Below, in pieces: positions 4,642 through 13,444 of a DNA stretch of 49,039 nucleotides (the first letter of the stretch is position 1; every line of letters begins with the position of its first letter). Both the position numbers and the translations under genes were made by a program. The notes beneath the pieces are model-generated. The model was not told where the DNA came from and did no database searches. It saw only the letters and a program-made list of their open reading frames with translations. This DNA is from Oscillospiraceae bacterium (lineage in GTDB: Bacteria; Bacillota; Clostridia; UMGS1883; UMGS1540): positions 1 through 49,039 of the forward strand of contig SVJY01000010.1 of the NCBI GenBank assembly GCA_015068765.1, written 5' to 3'.

Positions 4642-4671
4642 GTATATTACGCCTCACTTATGGTAATACTC
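4642..4671 (+). promoter_or_regulatory. sigma-F (forespore) promoter of spoIIR
   Basis: GTATA (4642-4646), 15 bases, then GGTAATACTC (4662-4671). The Bacillus sigma-F consensus is GYATA-N15-GGnnAnAnTR, and only the last base departs from it. SpoIIR is a known sigma-F target in B. subtilis. Transcription would begin near 4677, right at the GAGGTG binding site for the ATG at 4690. This rules out the upstream in-frame ATG at 4660. Confidence 0.75.
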
Positions 4672-4689
4672 TGCATTGAGGTGAATTAC

Positions 4690-5316
4690 ATGAAAAAAAG
4701 CATAATCGCACTATGTATGGGTCTCCTTATAACAATCGGGTTTACCGTTTATTCAGACGCAGAGCAAGGCAGGATTGCTGAAAACGTACTGCGTCTCCAT
4801 GTTCTCGCTAACAGCGACACGCCGGAGGACCAGACTTTAAAACTTTTTGTACGTGACCGACTTCTGACAGAAAGCCGTTCTCTTTTTATAAATTGCGAAT
4901 CACCTTCCCAGTCCCGTGCGGTTTTTCTGCAGGAACGGGCGGCACTGGAAAAAGCTGCCGCAGATGAAATCCAAAAGCAAGGATTTTCCTATCCCGTTAC
5001 GCTGTCACTGGAAAAAACTTATTTCCCTACCCGGTATTATGACGGTGTTGCCTTCCCTGCCGGTGAGTATGATGCAGTACGGGTAGAAATCGGTAAAGCT
5101 GAAGGGCAAAACTGGTGGTGTGTCATGTTTCCGCCGCTGTGCTTTGTAGATGGCAGTGTTTCTACGGACAGTGCCACGCAGATTACCGACGCCATAGGCA
5201 GTGATGCCGCACTTCTCACCCCGGATTCCACAGGGGATGTGCAGATTCGTTTTAAGGTGGTTGATTTTTTTCAAAGTGCCAAGCACGTGATTAAAGGTGC
5301 TTTCCGTCGTACCTGA
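4690..5316 (+). CDS. spoIIR: stage II sporulation protein R (SpoIIR)
   Basis: Secreted signalling protein made in the forespore. In Bacillus it triggers SpoIIGA to process pro-sigma-E in the mother cell. The start at 4690 has GAGGTG 6 bases upstream and lies after the sigma-F promoter. It gives 208 residues with an N-terminal hydrophobic signal segment (IIALCMGLLITIGFTVY). The family signature LRLHVLANSDTPEDQTLKL follows, then the typical KAAADEIQKQGF and PAGEYDAVRVEIG blocks and NWWCVMFPPLCF. The gene lies at the end of the ligA run but has its own promoter, and a hairpin terminator follows. Confidence 0.93.
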   Translation: MKKSIIALCMGLLITIGFTVYSDAEQGRIAENVLRLHVLANSDTPEDQTLKLFVRDRLLTESRSLFINCESPSQSRAVFLQERAALEKAAADEIQKQGFSYPVTLSLEKTYFPTRYYDGVAFPAGEYDAVRVEIGKAEGQNWWCVMFPPLCFVDGSVSTDSATQITDAIGSDAALLTPDSTGDVQIRFKVVDFFQSAKHVIKGAFRRT

Positions 5317-8502: not shown

Positions 8503-9465
8503 ATGAATACAAATGAACTTGCCAGAAAATGTAACATTAGTGTATCGGCTGCTTATAAAGCACTGTACCACAAACGGGGCGTGGACGCAAAGACCCGAGA
8601 GAAGGTTTTTGCCGCCGCCGATACTGTTCCTGTCGCTACGGCAGGCGGAAAACCGTCTGTCGGTGTTGTGCTGCCCGCAAGGCCCGGCTATTATTGGGAT
8701 GCTGTATACCGTGGCATCAAAAGCGAAATCCCCTCTTCCGCGGAAGCGCATTTTGCCTTTTTCTCTTCTCTCGGCTCTGGCAGCGAAGGTCTACACGCCA
8801 TTGACTTTGTACAGAATCTGGATTTATGTATTGTTGCTCCTGCCTCTGCACCTGTCGTACAGGCAAGGGTTGCGGCACTCGCTATGAAAAAACCGCTTGT
8901 ATATGTAAACGAGGGGCTTCCCACGCCGCATGTGGCTACTGTTTGCGGGAACCACTATAACGACGGATACAGGCTGGGTGTGGCGTACAATTCGGTTTTC
9001 CCGGATAAAAAACGGATTCTGGCACTCCATGTACATAACGGTCTTGGTGCCCAAATGCGAACAAACGGGTTTATAGATGCCATCAGCGAGGGTGGTGCTT
9101 CCATTATCGGGAATATTTCTTTAGAAGATATTTCCGCACCGCTGGCATCCGTGATTGCCCGAAAAATCAAAGCGGATTATATGGAAGAATTTGACTGTCT
9201 ATACTGTGCCACCGGCGTGACCAACTATGTGTGCCTTGCCCTGCAAAAGCTAAAGCTTTTAAATGAGGTCATCTGTATCGGGTATGAAAATCCCCTGGGC
9301 AACGCCGCCTATATTGAAAACAGACTTATTCGTCTTCTTTCGGTGAGCAATCCCTTTGAAATGGGACGCACGGCCGCACGGGTTGCCGTGTCCTTCCTTT
9401 TGCATGGCAAAGAACCTAAAGAAAAAACCATTTATATTCCTTCCACAATTTTTGAAAACAAGTAA
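8503..9465 (+). CDS. LacI-family transcriptional regulator
   Basis: N-terminal LacI helix-turn-helix (MNTNELARKCNISVSAAYKALY, then RGVDAKTREKVFAAAD), followed by a periplasmic-binding-protein-like effector domain from about residue 50. The total of 320 residues is normal. The effector half has VGVVLPARPGYYWDAVYRGI and a C-terminal IGYENPLG-type segment. It is divergent from the creatininase/aminotransferase operon, so local control of that operon is inferred. The start has no ribosome binding site and is placed at the predicted transcription start. An internal start would delete the DNA-binding helix, so this ATG is favoured. Confidence 0.88.
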   Translation: MNTNELARKCNISVSAAYKALYHKRGVDAKTREKVFAAADTVPVATAGGKPSVGVVLPARPGYYWDAVYRGIKSEIPSSAEAHFAFFSSLGSGSEGLHAIDFVQNLDLCIVAPASAPVVQARVAALAMKKPLVYVNEGLPTPHVATVCGNHYNDGYRLGVAYNSVFPDKKRILALHVHNGLGAQMRTNGFIDAISEGGASIIGNISLEDISAPLASVIARKIKADYMEEFDCLYCATGVTNYVCLALQKLKLLNEVICIGYENPLGNAAYIENRLIRLLSVSNPFEMGRTAARVAVSFLLHGKEPKEKTIYIPSTIFENK

Positions 9466-9492
9466 CGCTTTTGCCGCCTACCGCATAGGATA
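9465..9492 (+). promoter_or_regulatory. candidate mother-cell (sigma-K/sigma-E type) promoter before spoVM
   Basis: AC (9465-9466), 17 bases, CATAGGATA (9484-9492) fits the sigma-K form AC-N16/17-CATAnnnTA. The -10 is also shared with sigma-E, but no good sigma-E -35 is visible. It lies upstream of the small membrane protein and spoVM. The motif is short, so chance is possible. Confidence 0.4.
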
Positions 9493-9513
9493 AAGTAAAC
9501 GGAGGTGTACATA

Positions 9514-9663
9514 ATGTGTGGTAAGCGCAGAGCAATCGGTGTTATTATCCTTTCCTTTTCCACGGGTGCATTGCTTGCAGCCGCTCTGCCTCTGTGGATT
9601 CTGGCCATTATTGAAGCGATTATGCTAATTGTAATCGGCTGGTGCTTCTTTAGCGGCGATTAA
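9514..9663 (+). CDS. 49-residue membrane protein upstream of spoVM
   Basis: GGAGGTG (9501-9507) precedes the ATG at 9514. The peptide starts MCGKRRAIG and contains two hydrophobic segments (about residues 8-25 and 27-45) separated by a proline, ending CFFSGD. It is probably a hairpin in the membrane. The next gene, spoVM, follows after 18 bases and shares the candidate mother-cell promoter. I do not recognise a named family. A role in sporulation is inferred from position only. The strong binding site and clean hydropathy support a real gene. Confidence 0.7.
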   Translation: MCGKRRAIGVIILSFSTGALLAAALPLWILAIIEAIMLIVIGWCFFSGD

Positions 9664-9681
9664 GATAGGGAGGTGCGTCTT

Positions 9682-9753
9682 TTGAAGGTTGTGGTATGGA
9701 AGGCGCCCCGTTTCTGGGGCGGAATTTTGAAATGCATTTTTAGAGTGAAATAG
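9682..9753 (+). CDS. spoVM: SpoVM-like spore morphogenesis peptide (TTG start)
   Basis: A 23-residue amphipathic peptide, MKVVVWKAPRFWGGILKC and five more residues ending in RVK. It aligns without gaps to B. subtilis SpoVM at K2, K7, P9, F11, G13, G14 and I15. SpoVM recognises the convex forespore membrane and anchors SpoIVA for coat and cortex assembly; Pro9 is the residue known to matter for this. Translation would start at TTG (9682) after GGGAGGTG (9668-9675) with 6 bases spacing. It lies directly downstream of a small membrane protein and upstream of a terminator. It is easily missed because of its length and start codon. Confidence 0.85.
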   Translation: MKVVVWKAPRFWGGILKCIFRVK

Positions 9754-9790
9754 GGCGGGATAAATCCTCCCCCCTATTTTTTATTTTTTT
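9751..9790 (+). terminator. terminator after spoVM
   Basis: A GC-rich hairpin, TAGGG (9751-9755) with CCCTA (9772-9776) and inner GGA/TCC around a TAAA loop, followed by a long T-rich run. It overlaps the spoVM stop codon. Confidence 0.7.
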
Positions 9791-9801
9791 ACAAAAAATT
9801 C

Positions 9802-9830
9802 TTGACAAAGATAAATTTGTGTGGTAGAAT
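9802..9830 (+). promoter_or_regulatory. strong sigma-A promoter of tRNA-Glu
   Basis: TTGACA (9802-9807), 17 bases, TAGAAT (9825-9830) with an upstream TGG extended -10. The predicted start is about 6 bases before the mature tRNA. Confidence 0.75.
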
Positions 9831-9842
9831 AATTCCTGTTAA

Positions 9843-9918
9843 GGCCCCATCGTCTAGCGGCCTAGGACGTAGCCCTCTCACGGCTAAAACAAGGGTTCGA
9901 TTCCCTTTGGGGTCACCA
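9843..9918 (+). tRNA. tRNA-Glu (anticodon CTC)
   Basis: A cloverleaf with acceptor stem GGCCCCA/TGGGGTC, D-arm, anticodon stem TAGCC/GGCTA enclosing loop CTCTCAC, and T-arm GTTCGATTC. The anticodon CTC at 9877-9879 reads GAG. CCA is encoded at 9916-9918. It stands alone with its own strong promoter and terminator. Confidence 0.95.
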
Positions 9919-9952: not shown

Positions 9953-9999
9953 AGAATATCGAATACGCTTTTTATGTATTTCTATATTCTCTTTTTTTT
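9953..9999 (+). terminator. terminator after tRNA-Glu
   Basis: AGAATAT (9953-9959) pairs with ATATTCT (9984-9990), with GAATAC/GTATTTC continuing the stem. C and eight Ts follow. It separates the tRNA from radC. Confidence 0.75.
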
Positions 10000-10027
10000 A
10001 TTCAAATACGGATTGGAGAGAATGTCA

Positions 10028-10693
10028 ATGCACGAAGGACACCGGGAACGAATGCGTGAAAAATACATACAAAACGGCATTGGTGCGTTGGCACCGCATG
10101 AGGTTTTAGAGCTTTTACTGTTTTATTCTCAGCCTCGCGTCAATACAAATGAGGCTGCACATCGGCTGATTGATACGTTTCATTCCATCCACGGCGTTTT
10201 GAATGCGGATATGGATTCGCTTTGTACTATAGACGGCGTTGGCAAAAACAGTGCACTTCTCCTGCACCTTATCAAGGATGTGGTGAATCTTTATAACCGT
10301 GGAAGCCTGGAACGGAATCCGTTGCTTCCCACTGCTATGGAGGCCGGAGACTATATTCTTCGCATGATTGGTGATCAGACAAAAGAAGGCTTCTACGTCT
10401 TCTGTCTCGATCCGGAGGGACGTGTGATTTCCTATAAGAAAATCTTTGAAGGGTCTACCTACCGGGTATATATCGATATCCGCCTTGTGGTAGAATATGC
10501 ACTGACGCACCGTGCTTACTCGGTTATTTTAGCACACAACCATCCTTTAGGTCTGATTGAGCCATCCGAAGAAGATATACAGCTCACCCAGCAGATTCAG
10601 TCCGTACTGAAGCCGCTTTCCATTCCCGTAACAGATCATATCATTTGTGGGGATGGCTGTTTTTACAGTATGGCCGCCCACTGCTTACTTTAG
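10028..10693 (+). CDS. radC: RadC-family JAB-domain protein
   Basis: An N-terminal helix-hairpin-helix region (GALAPHEVLELLLFY, IDGVGKNSALLLHLI) is followed by an MPN/JAB domain. Its metal motif AHNHPLGLIEPSEEDIQLT keeps the H-x-H and downstream Asp. The family was once linked to DNA repair, but its real role is unsettled. I chose ATG 10028 (MHEGHRERMREKY), 9 bases after GGAG (10015-10018). The ATG at 10022 is too close to the site, and an upstream in-frame ATG at 9974 falls inside the tRNA terminator. It gives 221 residues, the usual length. Confidence 0.88.
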   Translation: MHEGHRERMREKYIQNGIGALAPHEVLELLLFYSQPRVNTNEAAHRLIDTFHSIHGVLNADMDSLCTIDGVGKNSALLLHLIKDVVNLYNRGSLERNPLLPTAMEAGDYILRMIGDQTKEGFYVFCLDPEGRVISYKKIFEGSTYRVYIDIRLVVEYALTHRAYSVILAHNHPLGLIEPSEEDIQLTQQIQSVLKPLSIPVTDHIICGDGCFYSMAAHCLL

Positions 10694-12985: not shown

Positions 12986-13165
12986 ATGACCCCGAAAGAA
13001 CTGATGTATATGGAAGACGCTTTGGGTATGGAACAACAGCTTCAGACAAAATGTAACGACTATGCGTCCAAGGTACAGGATGCCACATTGCAGAACACTC
13101 TCCGCAATCTTGCCACACAGCACCAGAAGCACTATTCCTGTCTTTTAAATCAACTCAACCAGTAA
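12986..13165 (+). CDS. small CotF-like spore coat protein (59 aa)
   Basis: AAAAGGAG precedes the ATG at 12986. The 59 residues (MTPKELMYMEDALGMEQQL...) form an amphipathic helical pair typical of the short spore coat proteins found next to CotF-domain proteins in Clostridia. A second CotF-like gene follows 15 bases later on the same likely transcript. A coat location is inferred from similarity of style and the pairing. There is no signal peptide or cysteine-rich motif; one or two cysteines are present. Confidence 0.75.
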   Translation: MTPKELMYMEDALGMEQQLQTKCNDYASKVQDATLQNTLRNLATQHQKHYSCLLNQLNQ

Positions 13166-13180: not shown

Positions 13181-13444
13181 ATGGCAGCAAAACAAAATAT
13201 GACCGACCGAGAGTATATGGACGATATTCTCCTCACCTCTAAAACTATGTCCGGCCTGTATCATTACGCCGTACAGGAATCGCCGACCGAATCCGTTCAC
13301 ACGGAATTCAAGACTATTTTAAACCAGTCTCTCGATATGCAACACGAAATCTACTCTTTGATGGAACAAAAGGGCTGGTATACGACTACTGAAGCACCCA
13401 CCCAACAGGTGGATCAAGTAAAAAATAAATTTAGCATAAGCTAA
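13181..13444 (+). CDS. CotF-domain spore coat protein (87 aa)
   Basis: Contains the coat F pattern: MTDREYMDDILLTSKTMSGL, YHYAVQESPTESVHTEF, and LDMQHEIYSLMEQKGWY at the end of the helix bundle. These are ferritin-like four-helix coat proteins assembled on the spore. At 87 residues it is a single compact CotF module. AAGGAG lies 8 bases before the ATG. A strong terminator follows directly. It forms a two-gene unit with the 59-residue protein upstream. Confidence 0.85.
   Translation: MAAKQNMTDREYMDDILLTSKTMSGLYHYAVQESPTESVHTEFKTILNQSLDMQHEIYSLMEQKGWYTTTEAPTQQVDQVKNKFSIS

Follow-up and report, generated by a model that had tools for sequence, protein, structure and literature searches.

In Bacillus subtilis, SpoVM is an amphipathic helix bound to the curved outer membrane of the forespore, where it holds the SpoIVA coat base; residues K2, I6, and I15 are needed, and Pro9 is the kink of the helix. 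A further tiny sporulation protein of this organism, CmpA, acts with SpoVM and SpoIVA in the quality control of SpoIVA. SpoVM is the textbook starting landmark of coat assembly, yet in Clostridia other than Clostridioides difficile it is often not found. In C. difficile it is nearly dispensable, and mutants of the spoVM locus show a detached coat (Ribis et al., 2017; PMC5607322). In C. difficile, spoVM is co-transcribed during sporulation with the gene for CD25622, a 50-amino acid protein of unknown function that was published as unique to the Peptostreptococcaceae; an insertion in CD25622 that is polar on spoVM gave a phenotype like that of a spoVM insertion, with nothing added (PMC5607322). 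A literature search on the gene, the locus, and spoVM in Lachnospiraceae gave Ribis et al. (2017) as the one relevant paper and no later paper that names CD25622.

Here, a pair of small genes is described from a window of 49,039 nucleotides (the whole stretch of DNA that was analyzed): a gene for a 23-residue SpoVM and, ahead of it, a gene for a 49-residue protein, referred to below as the partner.

The locus and its neighborhood

The pair lies on the plus strand (Table 1) between a LacI-like gene and tRNA-Glu/radC, in a genome that carries one strong copy of each gene and in which spoIVA, sigE, and sigK were all found. This is a relocated position rather than the thiN-spoVM-rpmB-yloU location, which is usual but not defining for the SpoVM family and varies among relatives. 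A gap of 18 nt separates the two genes. Past spoVM, RNA folding gives a terminator hairpin of -17 kcal/mol (z -3.97; 0/200 shuffled sequences were equally stable) that is absent from the list produced by a simple consensus scan.

Table 1. Features of the partner-spoVM locus in the window.
Feature	Position	Strand	Remarks
Partner gene, ATG 9514 to TAA 9661-9663	9514..9663	+	49 aa; predicted two-helix membrane protein; CD25622 homologue by profile match
spoVM, TTG 9682 to TAG 9751-9753	9682..9753	+	23 aa; NF033436 31.0 bits, dN/dS
Shine-Dalgarno GGAGG, partner gene	9501..9505	+	Sequence
Shine-Dalgarno AGGGAGG, spoVM	9667..9673	+	Sequence; 8 nt ahead of TTG; kept in relatives
-35 element AGTAACG, predicted mother-cell promoter, sigma-K type ("AC")	9461..9467	+	De novo motif; letter test with controls
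-10 element GCATAGGAT	9483..9491	+	15 nt past -35 block, 22 nt ahead of partner start
Predicted intrinsic terminator	9747..9791	+	RNA fold; hairpin 9747-9780 plus T-rich tail

Directly past the terminator lies a gene for tRNA-Glu (CTC) at 9843-9918, with a sigma-70 promoter at 9802-9830 matching 11/12, and after it a RadC-family gene (9974-10690). Elsewhere in the window, a SpoIIR gene at 4660-5313 (TIGR02837, E 5.3e-47, over the cut-off) represents a second sporulation gene, and a Pfam Coat_F match (E 1.8e-19) marks a spore coat F-domain protein at 13181-13441, ahead of which a 59-residue open reading frame (12986-13162) had no match in Pfam or NCBIfam.

The 23-residue frame is SpoVM

A sequence-only reading of the window had assigned the 23-residue peptide to SpoVM from residues K7, P9, F11, G13, G14, and I15, all of which were found in the peptide. 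Against the NCBIfam model SpoVM_broad (NF033436), the peptide scored 31.0 bits (E 1.9e-7; residues 1-23 of 26) with its start taken as Met, which is exactly the curated cut-off of 31 bits, and a borderline 23.3 bits in the six-frame scan, where the start is taken as Leu. Among the SpoVM sequences of 68 relatives, position 7 is K in 82%, P9 is kept in 88%, and position 15 is I in 65% and L in 22%, with G13 and G14 conserved loosely. The window peptide also has K2, and it carries W at position 6, which is variable across those 68 relatives. The TTG start is common to three relatives (G001, G002, and G004), and others have GTG or ATG at the same aligned residue.

Coding selection was assessed by comparison with two congeners and a further genus of the family. 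Both frames are kept in relatives, in the same order, and substitutions in both are overwhelmingly synonymous, indicating purifying selection. Estimates of dN/dS were 0.03-0.05 for the partner (where dS is measurable), 0.03-0.10 for spoVM, and mostly 0.03-0.07 for both genes together. Between the window and the two congeners, the partner shows 14 synonymous to 2-3 nonsynonymous changes and spoVM 5-10 to 2-3, with a combined dN/dS of 0.05. Neither of the outcomes named in the sequence-only reading as refuting it, a lack of conservation of the two frames in relatives or substitutions without coding selection, was observed. That the 23-residue frame merely resembles SpoVM by chance, as its very short length, TTG start, and score exactly at the cut-off might suggest, is hardly credible given its dN/dS, the start and position conserved in relatives, and the mother-cell promoter predicted ahead of the pair (see below). 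The profile score, together with these features, identifies the frame as SpoVM, and the 49-residue frame is, by its substitution pattern, a real gene. The earlier remark that this spoVM is easily overlooked also holds, as the gene is very short and starts with TTG. In the six-frame scan of 391 genomes of the class, the 31-bit cut-off of NF033436 was passed in only 15 genomes; many more have a spoVM that is clear from place and promoter.

The partner protein

The partner has no Pfam or NCBIfam family, nor have 46 of its homologues, so annotation pipelines leave the protein unnamed. Matches to these databases across the partner family were scattered chance matches and were rejected. The best that the holin family gave was E 0.73, and a match to the sporulation membrane protein YtaF (TIGR02840; E 0.047, 13.2 bits, cut-off 149.6 bits) does not make the partner a member; it reflects a weak local likeness of one hydrophobic stretch to a much longer protein. 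An AlphaFold2 model built with 38 homologues has two helices, residues 3-24 and 27-48, interrupted at L25-P26 (mean pLDDT 75.9, pTM 0.40). P26 is invariant (38/38), and G42 and G18 are kept in 37/38 and 31/38 homologues, respectively. The partner is thus predicted by the model to consist of two membrane helices folded at the invariant proline. The mean charge of the homologues is +3 in the N-terminal tail and +0.7 in the C-terminal tail, and a hairpin whose two termini lie in the cytoplasm of the mother cell would fit the positive-inside rule.

The sequence-only reading had called the partner unnamed and unknown. It is indeed without a family name, but its C. difficile homologue and the co-transcription of that homologue were published in 2017. 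Ahead of spoVM, genome G316 encodes a 50-residue protein whose sequence is the same as in four named C. difficile records. It matches partner profile A4, which includes this protein as a row, with E 3.9e-13. Profile A1, which contains neither the C. difficile protein nor its C. mangenotii-like homologue, matched the latter in G384 (E 7e-5), and between C. mangenotii and C. difficile the protein has 80% identity. Moreover, the C. difficile gene sits at the rpmB/yloU locus shared with other partner genes. By these profile matches and this shared place, the window partner is a homologue of CD25622.

Linkage and range of the pair

The partner profile matched 95 of 391 genomes of the class at E <= 0.01, and a separate search for the SpoVM family covered the same set. 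Both gave matches in 44 genomes; in 39 of these the two genes are adjacent on one strand with the partner first and a gap of 8-106 nt, and the remaining five have weak partner matches (E > 0.001), of which four fall in long reading frames. When the DNA of 70 partner loci was inspected, a SpoVM frame stood directly downstream in 68, with E-values computed for frames near the partner rather than for whole genomes. Elsewhere in the phylum, 56 of 299 genomes from other classes had a profile match, and at the best 19 loci outside the class a SpoVM-like frame followed within 1-49 nt in 18, one of which was weak (E 0.002). It should be noted that this phylum search and the family scans used alignment A3, in which the N-terminus of one row was mistyped and the start of another had been trimmed; alignment A4 was rebuilt without these two rows. 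Since homologues occur throughout the class, which is Clostridia and includes C. difficile, and in other classes as well, the published range of CD25622, restricted to the Peptostreptococcaceae, is too narrow. The proposed linkage of a small membrane protein gene with spoVM is well supported by the adjacency counts, the gap ranging overall from 1 to 106 nt. At spoVM loci that lack a partner profile match, about half show a divergent small hydrophobic protein upstream and about half show none.

The classical spoVM neighborhood is shared by 56 of 109 loci, which adjoin rpe, thiN, rpmB, or yloU; this common ancestral place supports orthology of the partner genes. At the other 53 loci, the window among them, the flanks (1.5-2.5 kb at most loci) contain no ancestral neighbor and the pair is still together. 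Genomes with spoIVA are enriched among those with a partner (86/95 versus 280/391 overall, p 8e-7). Additionally, five genomes belonging to three families (G008 contig C84, G012 C26, G247 C3, G348 C6, and G347 C39) have spoIVA at a distance of about 2-4 kb from the pair, a possible sporulation cluster.

Promoter type

The promoters read by sigma-E and sigma-K have a common -10 element and differ at -35 (ATA versus AC), where T or C is read by a glutamine or an arginine of the sigma factor (Saujet et al., 2013; PMC3789822). When 70 upstream regions were searched without supervision for a two-block motif, the result was nGT[A/C]ACA, a spacer of 14-15 nt, and GCATA[T/G][A/T]AT, with a log-likelihood of 374.7 versus 15-26 for shuffled sequences; a scan with the sigma-70 consensus gave no information on this operon. 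The location of the motif, ahead of the partner (Table 1), supports the earlier suggestion that partner and spoVM share a likely promoter. To assign the sigma type, a neutral scan in which C and T carry the same weight at -35 was used, because a motif learned from spoIVA alone fell in a shifted register. Counted in gene sets from overlapping genomes, the ratio of C to T was 56:4 ahead of the pair, 5:22 ahead of spoIVA (sigma-E control), and 23:2 ahead of dpaA (sigma-K control), and in shuffled sequences, which reached the threshold far less often, it was 43:38. Further, the window genome encodes a sigE product with ISQSYISR and a sigK product with ISRSYVSR, matching the residues said to set T or C at -35 (PMC3789822). 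In the window, the -35 block shares letters with the stop codon of the LacI-like gene ahead of it; that the block is conserved among the closest relatives is therefore not independent evidence, while the class-wide motif is.

These results point to a mother-cell promoter of sigma-K type that is conserved class-wide. Since the -35 letter is of this type, most Clostridia probably express the pair late in the mother cell, in contrast to B. subtilis and C. difficile. The C. difficile site has T at -35, in agreement with its published control by sigma-E; sigma-K control is therefore not universal. At spoVM genes without a recognized partner (e.g., loci L002, L013, and L159-L163), the ratio of C to T at -35 was 16:3, and late expression of spoVM may, from this AC-type element, be general in Clostridia. 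The sigma-K-type promoter makes it easy to test at which stage, early or late, SpoVM acts in organisms other than Bacillus.

Retention of the partner without detectable SpoVM

In one spore-forming family, designated f22, the partner was found in 17 of 17 genomes, beside rpe, thiN, or yloU, and spoIVA was found in all 17. None of the 17 has a SpoVM-like frame at the partner locus, and the broad SpoVM profile found nothing in the eight genomes of this family in which it was applied. The partner compared between two f22 genomes gave dS ~3.2, dN 0.057, and dN/dS ~0.02. In 12 of the 17, a second, divergent partner-like frame precedes the partner, and this tandem occupies the position that partner-spoVM has in other lineages. 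The tandem lies at rpe-thiN-[X]-yloU (loci L281-L298; genomes G275, G375, G198, G046, G324, G293, G176, G257, G358, G341, G238, and G218), and its upstream copy (MRYTYKRYAG...RFMPLFLW) is a distinct subfamily. A genome of another class, G646, provides a further case of a partner without detectable spoVM. Family f22 is possibly the Lachnospiraceae, judging from the report that spoVM was not found in C. phytofermentans and C. saccharolyticum (PMC3533761).

Unless SpoVM has diverged beyond detection in f22, the retention of the partner indicates a role of its own. This bears on two readings in which the partner serves spoVM. If the upstream frame were a mere leader or translational coupler and its product inert, the short gap and the predicted shared promoter and terminator would be accounted for; such a role is very improbable and a leader peptide was rejected, given selection at the protein level (dN/dS 0.03-0.05) and retention of the gene in lineages without spoVM, to which are added the Shine-Dalgarno sequence that spoVM itself has and the variable gap. 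The other reading grants the protein a function, exerted solely on SpoVM, for example by bringing it to the outer forespore membrane or by protecting it from the membrane protease FtsH. SpoVM is a known ligand of FtsH in B. subtilis, and this fact and the near-constant adjacency and order count in its favor. We nonetheless regard a function confined to SpoVM as unlikely, as f22 keeps the partner under strong selection where no spoVM is detected and many spoVM genes have no visible partner.

A proposed role at the outer forespore membrane

We propose that partner and spoVM form a two-gene sporulation operon expressed in the mother cell. From the sigma-K-type promoter at 9461-9491, one short message would be made that ends at the terminator past 9753 and encodes the partner, whose basic N-terminus would face the mother cell, and SpoVM. 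Both proteins would most likely be placed in the outer membrane of the forespore and anchor the coat base there at a later mother-cell stage, and a membrane role of the partner's own would let it persist after loss of SpoVM. The sequence-only reading had raised a possible partnership in forespore membrane recognition. Joint action of the two proteins at this membrane is plausible and is the best-supported reading because of the linkage, the co-regulation, the membrane nature of the proteins, and the enrichment of spoIVA. Counting against it are the CD25622 insertion that adds nothing, the near-dispensability of spoVM and the sigma-E control of the operon in C. difficile, the roughly half of partnerless spoVM loci without a small hydrophobic frame, and the low pTM of the model. 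Taken as a whole, a late operon whose two products anchor the coat base, the partner having its own role, is the account that we favor with moderate confidence.

The sigma-K-type promoter, the predicted helical hairpin, and retention without spoVM would suit a membrane protein made late in the mother cell for a task apart from coat anchoring, such as transport, membrane remodeling, or holin-like lysis of the mother cell, and co-regulated with spoVM for timing only. This is rather improbable, since the pair stays intact where the ancestral neighbors are absent, spoIVA lies within 4 kb of it in five genomes of three families, and the holin family match is so poor. A bolder version of the coat-anchoring account, which we hold to be doubtful though not far-fetched, has the partner as the older and steadier part of the locus and a coat-base anchor in its own right in the outer forespore membrane of Clostridia and neighboring classes, SpoVM as a late, sigma-K-timed accessory, and the duplicated partner as the replacement of SpoVM in f22. 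If this were true, most anaerobic spore formers would not follow the B. subtilis model, where SpoVM arrives first and brings in SpoIVA. The persistence of the partner beside or without SpoVM suggests an overlooked part of spore building, and a protein so widely conserved and kept without detectable spoVM is a direct candidate for the coat anchor in Clostridia where SpoVM is nearly dispensable or is not found.

Comparison with described systems

The window SpoVM resembles that of B. subtilis in its length class, K2, K7, P9, a hydrophobic residue at position 15, and a basic residue at position 17. It differs in having 23 rather than 26 residues, a TTG start, and W at position 6, and the window copy has a partner gene ahead of it, a promoter that appears to be of sigma-K rather than sigma-E type, and no thiN-rpmB location. 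CmpA and the partner are both tiny sporulation proteins; CmpA is not known to form a membrane hairpin, and its sequence is different. The closest described system is the CD25622-spoVM operon, in which, as in the window, a protein of about 50 residues is encoded directly upstream of spoVM. Co-transcription was demonstrated in C. difficile, and in the window it is suggested by a predicted shared promoter and terminator; the C. difficile promoter is of sigma-E type, with T at -35, whereas most others have a sigma-K-type -35 element. The existence of the pair was thus already known, and what is new is its range, its putative sigma-K-type control, and a family in which the partner is kept without detectable SpoVM.
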